In this document: positions 11,197-64,000 of the stretch, piece by piece
Position numbering within the stretch: position 1 is the first letter of the stretch
Layout: the number at the start of each line of letters is the position of its first letter
NCBI RefSeq assembly: GCF_009769385.1
Contig: NZ_VKAB01000031.1
Location: 1 to 64,000, forward strand
From: Saccharothrix deserti
Lineage (GTDB): Bacteria; Actinomycetota; Actinomycetes; Mycobacteriales; Pseudonocardiaceae
Length of the DNA stretch: 64,000 bases
Reading direction: 5' to 3'
The notes under the pieces: model-generated
The model's input: only the letters and a program-made list of their open reading frames with translations
What the model was told of the DNA's origin: nothing
Databases searched by the model: none
Position numbers and translations under genes: made by a program

Positions 11197-11705
11197 TCAC
11201 GCCTGCCGGGTGAGGTGGGCGAGGATGGCGTCGACCACCTGGTCCGGCTTGAGGTCGTCGGTGACCACCTCGATGGTGGCGACCTCCCGGTACAGCGGCA
11301 GGCGGGCGTCCAGCAGGGCCTTGAACGTGGCGCGCGGGTTCACGCCGGCCAGCAGCGGTCGGGCGGTGGACAGGCCGGTGCGCTTCACGCCCTCGGCCAT
11401 GCCGACGTTGAGGAAGACCACGGTGTGGCCGGCCAGGCGGCCTCGGGTGGTCGCGGACAGCACCGCGCCGCCACCCAGTGCGAGCACGCCTTCGTGCGTC
11501 TTCAGGGCCTCGGCGACGGCCTGCTCCTCCAGCGCGCGGAACGCGGCCTCGCCGTCGCCGGTGAAGATGTCCGCGATCGAGCGGCCCTCGGCGGCGACGA
11601 TGTCGTCGTCGGTGTCGCGGAACGGGGCGTCCAGGCGTTCGGCGAGCAGGTGGCCGACCGTCGTCTTGCCCGCGCCGGGCGGTCCGAGGACGACGAGCTT
11701 GGGGG

Positions 11706-11709
<4 letters not shown>
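11197..11709 (-). CDS. aroK: Shikimate kinase
   Basis: A 170-residue kinase that phosphorylates shikimate at the 3-OH. The P-loop [12 protein letters not shown] is at about residues 8-19, followed by the shikimate-binding DTDDDI and GGGAV motifs and the lid region with STARPLL. The start is GTG at 11709, overlapping the aroC stop by 4 bp, giving a standard [10 protein letters not shown]-terminus. Longer frames upstream are shadows of aroC. Confidence 0.95.
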
Positions 11710-59549: not shown

Positions 59550-59613
59550 GCGCTCACCCTGCCACAAGAACGATCACCGCGCTCTGGCAGGAACCCCTGG
59601 GTTTCGCACCGGC

Positions 59614-60687
59614 TCAGGTCTCCTTGCAGAACTCGCCGATGGGGATGCCCACGTGCCGCTGCTCGGTCGCGACGTAGCCGAGCAGTTCGTCGCCGCGTCG
59701 CAGCTCGGTGACGTTGCGGACCTTCCCGCCGGGGCCGAGCACCCGAACGTGCCAGTCGTCCTGCACGGTGAGGCTCACCTCGACGCCCTCGGGCGAGTGC
59801 GCGGTGATGGTCAGGATCGGGCGCGATTCGAGCTTGGCCCGGCCGACGGTGAGCTTGCGGGTGCGGCCCTCGGAGTCGACGGCGAGCACCGTGCTGCCCG
59901 AGCGCAGCTCGGACAGGTAGTTGGTGCGGTTGTCCGGGCCGAGCACGTAGGAGTGCAGGGCGCCGGCGTTGACCCGGAACGGCCGGGTCGGCATGTAGGG
60001 CAGCGGGTGGGTCTCGCTGCAGCACAGGATGAAGCCGGAGGAGAACGAGCCGACGAGGATGCCCTCGTCCTCCCGGAAGTGCGAGGCGGTGTCCACGCAC
60101 ACCCGGTCGCCCAGGCCGTTGTGGGTGATGCCCTCGACGGTGAGCGTGGTGAGATCCAGCGGCGGGGTGGTGGCCTCCAGCAGCCGGGCCAGCTTGAACA
60201 CGTCGGTGGCGTCGCGCGGCGCCATGAGCACGCCGTCCGAGCCGTGCTCCAGCACGTCCAGCACGATCGCGGCCTCTTCGAGGTCGGCCACGACGGTGAC
60301 GAGCTTGCCGGGCGCGCCGTCGGCGGCGGCGATGACGATCTCCAGCGGGATCTTCGTCGGGTCGGTGAACGCGACGACGGTGTGCCCCAGCCGCACCGCC
60401 GCCGCGCACGCGAGCTTGAGCGTGCGGTCGTCGCGCACCTGCACGAACGCCGCGTCGGTGGTGAGCCGGTCCAGCCGGTCCTGGTCGTCGACGACCACGG
60501 TGACCAGGTGCGGGCTGTCGACCGGGGTGTCGGTGACGAGCACGCGGGTGATCGTCGGCGGCAACGTGTCCAGCAGCGCCGGGTCGTCGGAGACGACGCC
60601 CGCGATGCGGGCGTGCACGGCGGCGTCCACGACAGCTTCGCGGTGCGCTTCGGGGACGGTTCTGAGGTCGATCCAGGCGAACTTCAA
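59614..60687 (-). CDS. 3-Dehydroquinate synthase II-like enzyme (GriH-like)
   Basis: A 357-residue protein of the AroB-prime/DHQ synthase II family, unrelated to AroB. Conserved parts: FAWIDLRTVPEAHRE, GSDGVLMAPRD, VGSFSSGFILCCSETH and GPDNRTNYLSELRSG. Archaeal members make dehydroquinate from an aldolase product; in Streptomyces griseus GriH closes the GriI product to 3-amino-4-hydroxybenzoate. TTG 60687 has GGAG upstream and gives the family N-terminus; ATG 60726 (overlapping the aldolase stop) is an alternative. Partner of the aldolase gene upstream. Confidence 0.9.
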   Translation of the reverse strand: MKFAWIDLRTVPEAHREAVVDAAVHARIAGVVSDDPALLDTLPPTITRVLVTDTPVDSPHLVTVVVDDQDRLDRLTTDAAFVQVRDDRTLKLACAAAVRLGHTVVAFTDPTKIPLEIVIAAADGAPGKLVTVVADLEEAAIVLDVLEHGSDGVLMAPRDATDVFKLARLLEATTPPLDLTTLTVEGITHNGLGDRVCVDTASHFREDEGILVGSFSSGFILCCSETHPLPYMPTRPFRVNAGALHSYVLGPDNRTNYLSELRSGSTVLAVDSEGRTRKLTVGRAKLESRPILTITAHSPEGVEVSLTVQDDWHVRVLGPGGKVRNVTELRRGDELLGYVATEQRHVGIPIGEFCKET

Positions 60688-60722
60688 CGGTTCTCCAATG
60701 GTGAGAAAGCCGGACGACGTGG

Positions 60723-61520
60723 TCATGACGAGGCGACGACGCCCGTCATCGCGCGGACCAGGTCCGCATCGGTGTCGGCGTGGACGATCGACGCCAGTTC
60801 AGCGACCAGCGACATCGGTGCGGGCGCGGTGAACACGCGGCGGCCGACGGCGAGGCCCGCGCAGCCGACCGCCATCGCGGTGCGGGCGTGGTCGACCACG
60901 CTGCCGCCGGTCGCCGGACCGCCCGCCACCAGCACCGGGATCGGGCAGTTGGCGATGACCTCGGCCATCCGCTCGGCGGGCAGCGCGAGGTTGGTCTTGA
61001 CGATGTCGGCGCCGAGGTCGACCGCGATGTTGACCACGTGCGCGAGCAGCGTGGCGTCGTTCGGGTCGGCGACGCGCGGTCCGCGCGGGTAGACCATGGC
61101 GATCAGCGGCACGTTCCAGTCGTCGCACGCCTTGGCCACCGCGCCGAAGTCGGCGAGTTGGCGGCCCTCGGTGTCCGAGCCGATGTTGACGTGCACGCTC
61201 ACCGCGTCGGCGCCCAGCCGCAGCGCCTCGTCGACCTCGCCGACGAGGACCTTGGCGTTGGTGTCGGCGGCGTGCGCGGTGCCCGCGCTGAGGTGGACGA
61301 CCAGCGCGCAGCCGGCGAGCACGTCCGGGTCGATCGTGTGGACCCGTCCTTTGTGGACGATGATGGCGTCGGCGCCGCCCACGACGACGGAATCGATGAG
61401 GTCGTGCCACCGGTCGCGCGGCACCACCGGACCGTCGGAAACGCTGTGGTCCAGCGGGACGAAGAGGTACCTGTCGTCGCGCGGACGGGAAAGGCGTCGC
61501 AGCCGCAACGCTTTTCTCAT
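60723..61520 (-). CDS. Class I aldolase, ADTH synthase type (GriI-like)
   Basis: A 265-residue DhnA-type fructose-bisphosphate-aldolase relative. Conserved parts: LFVPLDHSVSDGP, ADAIIVHKGRV, DAVSVHVNIGSDTE, ADIVKTNL with the Schiff-base lysine, and VLVAGGPATGGS. GriI joins aspartate semialdehyde with dihydroxyacetone phosphate on the way to 3-amino-4-hydroxybenzoate. ATG 61520 has GGAGG ten bases upstream. It overlaps the DHQ synthase II frame by ATGA and follows a tandem-repeat leader. Confidence 0.91.
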   Translation of the reverse strand: MRKALRLRRLSRPRDDRYLFVPLDHSVSDGPVVPRDRWHDLIDSVVVGGADAIIVHKGRVHTIDPDVLAGCALVVHLSAGTAHAADTNAKVLVGEVDEALRLGADAVSVHVNIGSDTEGRQLADFGAVAKACDDWNVPLIAMVYPRGPRVADPNDATLLAHVVNIAVDLGADIVKTNLALPAERMAEVIANCPIPVLVAGGPATGGSVVDHARTAMAVGCAGLAVGRRVFTAPAPMSLVAELASIVHADTDADLVRAMTGVVASS

Positions 61521-61536
61521 GTCGCTCACACCTCCC

Positions 61537-61648
61537 CAGAACTCGACGAACACAGAACTCGACGAACACAGAACTCGACGAACACAGAACTCGACGAACA
61601 CAGAACTCGACGAACACAGAACTCGGCTGACACAGAACTCAGCGGACA
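61537..61648. repeat. 16-bp tandem repeat array in the GriI-like gene leader
   Basis: Five exact copies of CAGAACTCGACGAACA (61537-61616) are followed by two diverged copies (61617-61632, 61633-61648). The array ends about 17 bases before the aldolase start codon, so it is in the presumed 5' untranslated region or promoter. The rest of the 317-bp gap (61521-61837) shows no further gene. Confidence 0.95.
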
Positions 61649-61837
61649 CGGGACTCGGCGATGGCCATCCAGCAGAGTGGTCGAACCAGTGAGCGCGGCG
61701 GTAGGTGTGAGGTGGCGATAACTCCTCAGTTATGCACCTGTTGGAGCAACGGAGCGGGATCTTCTCGACGCAGCGTCATCCCCTACCCACTCTCGCGGTC
61801 GGTGTTTGGCGTGTTCGCCTTGCCCTAGGCTGCCGCA

Positions 61838-62800
61838 GTGAACATGGAGCTCAGGCACCTCCACGTCGTCCTGACCGTGGCGGAAGCGGGCAGCATCAGC
61901 CGAGCCGCTTCACTGCTGAAGATCGCGCAGGCCGGTTTGACCGCCCAGTTGCGCCGAATCGAACGCGGATTCGGGGGTCCGTTGTTCCTGCGGCGCACCG
62001 ACGGCGTCGAGCTGACCGAACTGGGTCGCCACGTCGTGCTGCGATCCCGCGACCTGGTGGAACGCTTCGACGATCTGCTTGTCACCGCACGCAAACTGGC
62101 CGCGGAGAACGACGTGACGGGCATCCGGCTCGGCGGCGTCCCCGGTTCCCTGACGCCGTTGCTGGTGGGCGTCGTGCGCGCCTTGTTACCGACGCACCCG
62201 CAGACCACCCACATCGAACGCGGTGGTGACACGGTCGTCGAACTGGTTCGCACGGCGAAGTTGGACGTGGCGCTGGTGACCGAGTTCCCGCAGAGTCCAC
62301 TGCGGATTCCCGAAGAAGTCGCCTGCCGGACCGTCGTTTCGGAACCGATGTTGGTCGGAATCGCCGCCGGACACCGGTTGTCCGGTCGCGGTGAGATTCG
62401 GCTGTCCGAACTGGCCGATGAGGAATGGGCGGTGCCGGACGAGAGCCACGGCGGCGGACGGCTGCACCTGCACCTGGCCTGCGAGGCGGCCGGATTCACA
62501 CCGCGTTGCGCGCATTTCGGCGTCGATCCGGCTTCGGCCGCGGAACTCGTGCGTTCCGGGCACACCGTGGCGTGCTTCTTCCCGACCGGGCACGACTTGC
62601 CCGGCGTGCTGTTGAAACCGGTCGTGGGCAATCCGGTCCACCGGCGCGTCACGTTGGTGTGGCGCCGGGACTGCGCGGCGGCGGAGTACGTCGACGAGAT
62701 CCACACGGCACTGCTGCGCGCTTACCAGGAGCGGATCTGGGGCCACGGTCACCGTCCGGCGAAGCTGGCCGCCACCGGGCTGACCGCGGCGGCGAGCTGA
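61838..62800 (+). CDS. LysR-family transcriptional regulator
   Basis: A 320-residue LysR regulator: winged helix-turn-helix (about 1-62, with AGSISRAASLLKIAQAGLTAQL, core SRAASLLKIAQ) and an effector-binding domain. GTG 61838 lies 6 bases after a TAGGCT element, so the mRNA may be leaderless; ATG 61844 is the alternative. It diverges from the GriI/GriH-like pair, the usual arrangement for a LysR gene and its target. Confidence 0.9.
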   Translation: MNMELRHLHVVLTVAEAGSISRAASLLKIAQAGLTAQLRRIERGFGGPLFLRRTDGVELTELGRHVVLRSRDLVERFDDLLVTARKLAAENDVTGIRLGGVPGSLTPLLVGVVRALLPTHPQTTHIERGGDTVVELVRTAKLDVALVTEFPQSPLRIPEEVACRTVVSEPMLVGIAAGHRLSGRGEIRLSELADEEWAVPDESHGGGRLHLHLACEAAGFTPRCAHFGVDPASAAELVRSGHTVACFFPTGHDLPGVLLKPVVGNPVHRRVTLVWRRDCAAAEYVDEIHTALLRAYQERIWGHGHRPAKLAATGLTAAAS

Positions 62801-62922: not shown

Positions 62923-63363
62923 TCACTGGTCCGAGTGCCGGAGCACGCTCTCGACCTCGGTGCGGAACGCGTTGACGCCGTCCTCGCCCTCCGGCGCGCC
63001 GTGCGCCTGGAGCAGGTGCAGCAGCGCCACGCCGTTCGCGGACCGGCGGGACAGGGCGCGGAACGAGAACGCGGTCTCGTAGACGGTGACCGCCGTGGCC
63101 AGCGCCGCCGCCACCGTGGCCAGGAACGCCCACAGCGCACGCCGGCCACCGTCCGCCACGGCCACCGCGCCCAACGCCGCCGCCGCGGTGAACAGCAGCA
63201 CCGTGACGGCGGTCGCCCAACGCCGCGCCGACGTGTAGCGGGCCTGGGCCTGCTCGAACCCGGCGAGCCGTTCGCCCACCCGGTGCCTCAGGAAGGCGCG
63301 CAGGAACTGCTCGCGGTGGTCGTCGACGACCGTCGGCGGAGCCGACAATCCGGTGGGGGTCAT
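62923..63363 (-). CDS. Two-TM protein, SLATT-like
   Basis: A 146-residue protein: N-terminal helix rich in Arg/Glu (about 15-45), two membrane helices (about 48-70 and 76-96) separated by a short turn, and a soluble helical C-terminus with FRALSRRSANGVALLHLL. This layout fits SLATT/DUF4231-type two-TM proteins, linked to nucleotide-sensing defence or stress systems. Its stop and start overlap or adjoin the next gene (4-bp overlap). Assignment is by architecture, not by a firm motif. Confidence 0.6.
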   Translation of the reverse strand: MTPTGLSAPPTVVDDHREQFLRAFLRHRVGERLAGFEQAQARYTSARRWATAVTVLLFTAAAALGAVAVADGGRRALWAFLATVAAALATAVTVYETAFSFRALSRRSANGVALLHLLQAHGAPEGEDGVNAFRTEVESVLRHSDQ

Positions 63364-64000
63364 GTGCGGCTCACCGATTCGTGGCGGAACCGCGCCACCG
63401 CCGTCGCCAACTCGCGGGAACGCTCTTCGCGCTCGGCGTCGTCGACGGGCGGTGGTGCGGCGAGGTGGTCGAAGTACAAGGCGCGCAACTGCTCGGCGCG
63501 AACGCGGGCGTCCGGGTCCTCACCACTCCGGGCCACCACCGCGAGCACCGCCGCCGCCGCGCCGGACACGGCCAGCAGCACACCGGGCCACGGCGAGTCC
63601 CGCAGCCACACCTGCAACGCGGCGAACACCGTGGTGCCGAACCCGGCGGCGATGGCGAGCACCACCAGCAGCCGCGCGCGTTCCCTCGCCCTGAGGGCGG
63701 CGACCTCGCACTCGTGCAACGCGGGGGCCACCACCTGGTTGGCCTCGTGGATCGCGTCGGCGAGCAGCGGGTAGTCCAGCACGTAGCCGGGGTCGATCAC
63801 GGGGTGCGGCTCGGGCGCCCGGAACCGCACCCTCGGCCACACGGCGGGCGGCGGCACGGTGGCGTGCAGCTTGGCGCCGGGCCGGCTGCCCAGCACCCGC
63901 CGCACCACCGCGACCACCTTGTCCGCGCCCTCGTCCAGGTGCACCACGGCCACCTGACCGCTGCGCACCAACACGGCCAGGTCGTCGTCCGGGGCGGCGT
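63360..64000 (-). CDS. Two-TM protein with N-terminal domain, SLATT-like (5' part missing)
   Basis: At least 213 residues, open at the right edge. The visible N-terminal part (VLVRSGQVAVVHLDEGADK) looks like the end of a Rossmann-like domain, possibly SLOG. Then comes YVLDYPLLADAIHEANQVV, two membrane helices (about RLLVVLAIAAGFGTTVFAAL and VLLAVSGAAAAVLAVVA) and a helical tail. The same two-TM layout as its neighbour, with which it is translationally coupled. The true start is outside the window. Confidence 0.6.
   Translation of the reverse strand, partial: AAPDDDLAVLVRSGQVAVVHLDEGADKVVAVVRRVLGSRPGAKLHATVPPPAVWPRVRFRAPEPHPVIDPGYVLDYPLLADAIHEANQVVAPALHECEVAALRARERARLLVVLAIAAGFGTTVFAALQVWLRDSPWPGVLLAVSGAAAAVLAVVARSGEDPDARVRAEQLRALYFDHLAAPPPVDDAEREERSRELATAVARFRHESVSRT

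Follow-up and report, generated by a model that had tools for sequence, protein, structure and literature searches.

A LysR-linked griI-griH cassette of Saccharothrix that has lost its ligase and most likely delivers free 3-amino-4-hydroxybenzoic acid or a simple derivative

Positions 1-64,000 of contig C24 (NZ_VKAB01000031.1; hereafter the window) of the 10.8-Mb genome of Saccharothrix deserti contain a griI-like aldolase gene and a griH-like synthase gene beside a divergent gene for a LysR-family regulator. A four-gene module, with lysR divergent from griI-griH-ligase, occurs through Saccharothrix and Lentzea, and the cassette of the window is its reduced version. Because the ligase gene has been deleted, while selection still acts on both enzymes and an intact operator remains, we conclude that this LysR-controlled two-enzyme cassette now most likely delivers free 3-amino-4-hydroxybenzoic acid (3,4-AHBA) or a simple derivative. 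As judged from the protein families, the LysR-controlled GriI would join aspartate semialdehyde and dihydroxyacetone phosphate, and GriH would close and aromatise the product to 3,4-AHBA. The ligase that would activate this acid has left only a scar, and free 3,4-AHBA would be used as such, changed by enzymes encoded elsewhere (e.g. an arylamine N-acetyltransferase, NAT) or oxidised to a phenoxazinone.

An earlier note, made from the letters of the window alone, had described a GriI-like aldolase and a GriH-like DHQ synthase II coupled beside a LysR gene, with 3,4-AHBA as the expected product. The open reading frames (ORFs) lie where it placed them, and the families agree: GriI matches Pfam DeoC/LacD (E 1.8e-44) and passes the cut-off of NCBIfam PRK07226 (294.4 bits against 241), and GriH matches Pfam DHQS (E 4.5e-110) and passes that of NCBIfam PRK02290.1-3 (526.7 bits against 375). 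GriI is a DhnA/ADH-synthase-family aldolase, whose D24, Y144 and K175, invariant in all 15 GriI proteins aligned, correspond to D33, Y153 and K184 of MJ0400, which we take to be the catalytic Asp, Tyr and Schiff-base Lys of that enzyme; it should catalyse the condensation named above. For GriH, BagC_FevH (423.9 bits, below its cut-off of 750) outscores the best DHQ synthase II equivalog (247.7 bits), which puts the protein closer to the 3,4-AHBA synthases than to true DHQ synthase II. Some close relatives carry the database name '3-amino-4-hydroxybenzoic acid synthase' (best 120 of 8000 candidates scored), near-identical proteins are partly filed under Actinosynnema among the matches listed, and a search of GriH against PDB gave no match at 1e-3. 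The grixazone griI/griH pair is described as a two-enzyme route to 3,4-AHBA (PMC10179220). Together with the shikimate genes described next, the aldolase residues and the grouping of GriH with 3,4-AHBA cluster types make predicted 3,4-AHBA formation the best reading of the pair, and one well supported by family evidence.

An alternative, archaeal-type way into the shikimate pathway uses members of the same two protein families, an ADTH synthase and a DHQ synthase II, and many relatives among the matches listed are named '3-dehydroquinate synthase II'. Such an entry is hardly credible here. The window holds aroB (TIGR01357, 351.7 bits, cut-off 305), aroC (TIGR00033, 400.6 bits, cut-off 212.2), aroE (NF001311, 370.5 bits, cut-off 235) and aroK (11197-11709, a shikimate kinase by best matches, at 132.5 bits under the NF010552 cut-off of 186). 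These four genes, all listed by the earlier note, include the very aroB that such an entry would replace and make a shikimate role unlikely for griI-griH, as that note had argued. In addition, the DHQ synthase II equivalog models stay below cut-off (best 247.7 versus 392 bits), as does TIGR01949 for ADH synthase (235.4 versus 299.45), and in a tree without archaeal enzymes GriH sits among the GriH proteins of 3,4-AHBA cluster types.

GriH is present in 22 of 25 genus genomes (it was not found in the other three) and in 27 of 60 relatives. We examined 23 cassette loci, from these 22 genomes and one Lentzea; lysR is divergent from griI and GriI lies beside GriH in every one, and an AMP-ligase of ~450 aa directly follows griH in 18, including a truncated copy in G023. 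Within the genus, 17 of the 22 cassettes have the ligase, one of the 17 being the truncated one. The proposal that the pair is a stand-alone cassette is thus supported in most of the genus and outside it. A contig scan gave 431 relatives, of which the best 80, hence the closest only, were taken as named loci; their Saccharothrix members overlap partly with the 25 genus genomes. Among them, 21 have LysR-GriI-GriH-ligase with no ketosynthase or carrier gene nearby (Saccharothrix, Lentzea and two Umezawaea), three have the same layout without the ligase, 20 are LysR-linked with ketosynthase or carrier genes, 32 are LysR-free with such genes (one begins at a contig end without GriI), and four fit none of these layouts.

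The cassette ligase is missing from five genomes, namely the window genome, G005, G006, G018 and G019. By eye, the griH stop of the window is followed by three bases, the tail of the ligase gene as found in G001, G003 and G017, the usual spacer and an isomerase gene. In G019 the beginning of the ligase and residues ~282-450 remain, but a large internal part is gone and the frame changes; the junctions after griH in G005 and G006 are unlike that of the window, and in G018 other genes occupy the ligase place. Because the junctions differ, and because the GriH tree requires five changes for the ligase-less rows (two of them forced by starred branches), loss of the ligase probably occurred on more than one occasion. 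It is of the AvaA1/CmaA1/AhbL2 type and occupies the A1 position of ava/cma-like clusters. AvaA1 and CmaA1 load 3,4-AHBA on the AvaA3/CmaA3 carriers (PMC10777205), and ahbL2, which overlaps ahbH, is proposed to adenylate 3,4-AHBA (PMC10179220).

Selection was estimated as omega from branch-change counts in the five ligase-less and four chosen ligase-keeping genomes, on branches that include the time before the loss. For griI and griH together, omega was ~0.25 in the window genome, 0.20 in G019, 0.13 in G005, 0.41 in G006 and 0.14 in G018, and 0.09-0.13 in the four ligase-keeping genomes; pairwise values for the ligase itself were 0.25-0.46 (five pairs, one with a truncated copy). Since omega fell below neutrality in all five ligase-less genomes (p 4e-4 to 5e-23), griI-griH is kept under purifying selection; it is constrained without the ligase, perhaps slightly less than with it. 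These values bear on the view that the cassette is a decaying remnant, on its way out with a product of no present role. The loss or truncation of the ligase in 6 of 22 genus genomes, the lack of GriH in 3 of 25, the somewhat higher omega without the ligase and a tandem repeat in the griI leader would all suit decay, but the reading frames of the window are intact, the residues invariant, the operator present and purifying selection seen in all five genomes, and we regard decay as improbable.

Table 1. Genes and sequence elements of the cassette, with positions in the window
Feature	Position	Strand	Remarks
griI-like gene, DhnA-family aldolase	60723..61520	-	265 aa; ATG at 61520 behind GGGGAGGTG; Pfam/NCBIfam and residue alignment
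griH-like gene, 3,4-AHBA synthase (predicted), DHQ-synthase-II family	59614..60726	-	370 aa (ATG at 60726) or 357 aa (TTG at 60687 behind GGAG)
LysR-family regulator gene, divergent	61838..62800	+	Beside griI in 23/23 cassette loci
Palindrome ATAACT-N4-AGTTAT, probable LysR operator	61718..61733		lysR-griI spacer
16-bp tandem repeat array, ~7.8 units	61537..61661		griI leader, between operator and ribosome-binding site
Deletion scar: what is left of the 3' end of the deleted AMP-ligase gene, with its spacer	59571..59610	-	Three bases past the griH stop; matched by eye

The lysR start lies ~320 bases from griI, and the spacer carries the palindrome ATAACT-N4-AGTTAT. Operator statistics were based on 77 of the 80 named loci (without L131, L163 and L164). 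Within 260 bases before griI, the palindrome occurs in 38 of 44 LysR-linked loci with at most one mismatch and in all 44 with at most two (summed chance ~0.05), in stand-alone and ava/cma-like loci alike, and at most one mismatch finds it in one of 33 LysR-free loci. The whole genome contains a single site at this stringency, and none for the reversed pattern. Because the palindrome is found in 44/44 LysR-linked loci (at most two mismatches) and once in the genome (at most one), the regulator, which is predicted to bind it, looks dedicated to the cassette. A shared regulon was considered and rejected, as no second operator exists in the genome at up to one mismatch (weaker sites were not searched). 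The repeat array of the griI leader comprises ~2 units in the sister genome G019, is absent from 10 other loci aligned, and has no further copies in the window.

The kinship of the cassette was examined in a GriH tree (a quick IQ-TREE run with SH-aLRT support only, on 80 rows selected from a larger number of loci). All 30 cassette rows from Saccharothrix and Lentzea fall in a single group (SH-aLRT 100), nested in a 40-row set that also takes in Kutzneria and other ava/cma-like loci and the two Umezawaea cassettes (support 85, with no resolution inside the set). The GriH of the window groups with those of cma/ava-, manumycin- and crx-type loci, and the nearest relatives outside the stand-alone group are cma/ava-type loci of Kutzneria and others. 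The clusters for p-coumaric acid in Kutzneria albida (cma) and avenalumic acid in Streptomyces sp. RI-77 (ava) have the order I, H, A1 ligase as in the cassette; cma also has a LysR gene (cmaR), and LysR-linked clusters of this type bear the same palindrome. By gene order, tree and operator, the cassette and the first part of cma/ava have a common origin. LysR, I, H and the palindrome are all present in the window, and the ligase deleted there is kept elsewhere in the genus. However, cma and ava also have acyl carriers, a ketosynthase (KS), a chain-length factor (CLF), a diazotase and nitrite genes, none of which stands in cis to the window cassette; carriers, KS/CLF and diazotase were not found in cis among the scanned neighbours or the cassette loci. 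The diazotase of the ava/cma-like locus L059 (Lentzea aerocolonigenes, G031) exceeds the AvaA6 cut-off of 975 with 1029.6 bits. The simplest account of the cassette's origin is that a cma-like cluster was reduced; the change may also have run the other way, the cassette being built into clusters.

Other clusters resemble the cassette in part. By its description, ahb (ahbamycin, Streptomyces argillaceus) has the same synthesis-and-activation trio in ahbI, ahbH and ahbL2, but it spans 31 ORFs and 36.48 kb with SARP regulators, oxygenases and methyltransferases, and grixazone griI/griH is likened by description to the same two-enzyme route (PMC10179220). No genes of the type of griC/griD (carboxylate reduction) or griF (phenoxazinone synthase) were found among the seven neighbours scanned (genome-wide absence was not tested). 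BagB-BagC and FevI-FevH of bagremycin and ferroverdin provide some of the best NCBIfam models for GriI and GriH, at scores under the cut-offs, and no bag- or fev-like tailoring genes were seen near the window pair. Within the genus, the manumycin-type esp cluster (L062, G009) combines the I/H/ligase trio with carriers and KS/CLF; unlike the cassette it is a complete assembly line with C5N genes, and G009 carries a stand-alone cassette besides it. We take G009 to be Saccharothrix espanaensis, in part because of its cluster content. Two further griI-griH-ligase loci (L060 and L061) occur in one genome, G023; by eye, one adjoins a diazotase-like ANL enzyme and a methyltransferase, and the other DAHP synthase-, ammonia-lyase- and asparagine synthetase-like genes.

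The AvaA3/CmaA3 carrier profile has matches at E<=0.01 in 29 of 60 relatives, and close ones (<1e-20) in only three, G031 (ava-like) and G009 and G011 (manumycin-like). Among 12 Lentzea/Umezawaea genomes reached via cassette loci, four have a close carrier match, and the other eight, each with a ligase beside griH, have none better than 1e-5; the four-gene form, therefore, is also often without a recognised acceptor carrier. A ketosynthase search of the window genome, in line with the earlier note's suggestion to look for PKS genes, gave 43 matches, none of which was taken as ava-type (44% for the best one, against the ava-type KS of Lentzea).

The best candidate for a partner in trans is a cluster at G000:C3:418000-453000 (L077, L078), which encodes an AvaA1-like ligase, a carrier, an ANL enzyme, an HPPD-like enzyme and dehydrogenase E1 subunits, and in which griI and griH were not found. 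The ligase paralogue (G000:C3:435007-436344) is 43% like the cassette ligase of G003; the 84-aa carrier encoded next to it has the CmaA3-type W..H motif, shares the S..W..H stretch and is the genome's best match to the AvaA3/CmaA3 profile (E 2.3e-7), single-sequence searches having failed to reveal it; and the best model for the ANL enzyme is AvaA6 (425.6 bits, cut-off 975). Consumption of 3,4-AHBA by this cluster is possible. We nevertheless consider it unlikely that the pair supplies 3,4-AHBA to a different cluster of this genome. Of the 25 genus genomes, 13 encode a C3-type ligase (41-43%), and each of these also has the cassette (28 top candidates scored per genome, cut 1e-60; six C3 neighbourhoods inspected), but so do 9 of the 12 genomes without such a ligase. 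The C3 cluster has no operator at up to one mismatch, and its HPPD-like enzyme and E1 subunits may give it an aryl acid of its own. Compensation in trans by the C3 ligase was rejected, since such a ligase is found in 2 of 6 genomes with a lost or truncated cassette ligase versus 11 of 16 with a full-length one, the opposite of the distribution expected.

A second pair on contig C7, 53% (GriI) and 59% (GriH) identical to that of the window, lies between aspartokinase-like and O-methyltransferase-like genes (by eye). It belongs to a cluster of crexazone/cremeomycin-like diazo type (G000:C7:112000-151000; L003, L004) and is distinct from the window pair. This cluster includes a nitrosuccinate lyase (632.6 bits, just under the cut-off of 650) and an AvaA6-family ANL enzyme (429.6 bits, cut-off 975), with a large regulator nearby, and the order fits the descriptions of crxD, crxE, crxK, crxI and crxH, crxN, crxM, crxF, crxR1 (PMC11429834). 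That the cassette supplies extra 3,4-AHBA to it is very improbable: the cluster has its own aspartokinase-griI-griH set and no shared operator at up to one mismatch, and second pairs (56-59% GriH identity) are present in 3 of 25 genus genomes versus 22 of 25 for the cassette.

The genome has two NAT genes, and a Streptomyces griseus NAT encoded outside the grixazone cluster acetylates 3,4-AHBA (PMC11213898). Free 3,4-AHBA or a simple derivative is favoured as the output because a recognised acceptor carrier is often lacking, supply in trans lacks support from co-distribution and NAT genes are present. More tentatively, free 3,4-AHBA, or a spontaneous or N-acetylated product of it, might be the regulated end product, either a small metabolite with metal or redox activity or a signal, controlled by a LysR switch with a single operator; a polyketide pathway would then have been stripped to its first two enzymes, and the ligase repeatedly shed because the bare acid was selected. 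Saccharothriolides were considered as an end product and dropped, as the papers listed gave no link.

Several observations weigh against the reading preferred here. GriH (423.9 bits) and GriI (273.4 bits) fall below the BagC_FevH and BagB_FevI cut-offs of 750 and 500, and the GriI residues checked are common to the archaeal MJ0400, so that they do not prove the donor substrate; 3,4-AHBA formation is something we infer from families. The weaker constraint in ligase-less genomes (0.13-0.41 versus 0.09-0.13) fits slow decay too. At up to two mismatches the palindrome also appears in 8 of 33 LysR-free loci (chance ~0.06), mostly as a different palindrome, AACTTGAAAGTT. Finally, a search of the genome for tyrosinase (PF00264) was silent, as were all 14 controls, and is hence uninformative.

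The lost AMP-ligase, the operator, the cma/ava kinship and the second pair in the genome are new beyond the earlier note. They raise the questions of why a LysR-switched 3,4-AHBA supply is kept in Saccharothrix and Lentzea without the assembly line that uses 3,4-AHBA elsewhere, and why the activating ligase can be lost more than once. Among the papers listed in the literature searches, none was on a stand-alone cassette by title or abstract start. Kawai and co-workers' survey sought clusters in which KS-CLF and a diazotase are present as well, and stand-alone cassettes fall outside it for that reason (PMC10777205).

With regard to the gene starts, griI and griH overlap by ATGA provided that griH begins at its ATG; the TTG may be the true start, and a GriH of 357 aa, the length that this start gives, was called in 21 of 23 cassette loci. 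The remaining two are 354 and 388 aa, the latter, in locus L058 (G015), extending ~30 residues beyond the length of most cassettes. Genes were called with a purpose-written codon-usage script, and start positions are approximate. In locus L100 (Lentzea albidocapillata), griI is separated from griH by two additional ORFs, which may represent an insertion element that splits the operon. Among the best 80 of 431 relatives, Saccharothrix sp. ALI-22-I has the named GriH closest to that of the window (98%), in line with a Saccharothrix genome.

The seven neighbours scanned with Pfam and NCBIfam encode an IPP isomerase, a DUF998 protein, an acyl-CoA synthetase, a TetR protein, a weak SLATT match and two proteins without a family, and within this range the pair adjoins no tailoring genes, as had been stated. 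The IPP isomerase was rejected as a pathway member and treated as a mere neighbour, because it accompanies 20 of 23 cassette loci whether the ligase is present or absent and does not adjoin the cassette in the Lentzea locus. Past lysR, two short (-) ORFs span 62923-63974, one with the weak SLATT-domain match (34.5 bits, cut-off 41). Farther out, recurring neighbours seen by eye include an SDR-like protein in 19 of 23 loci, a cupin in 7 and a SARP-like protein in 5.
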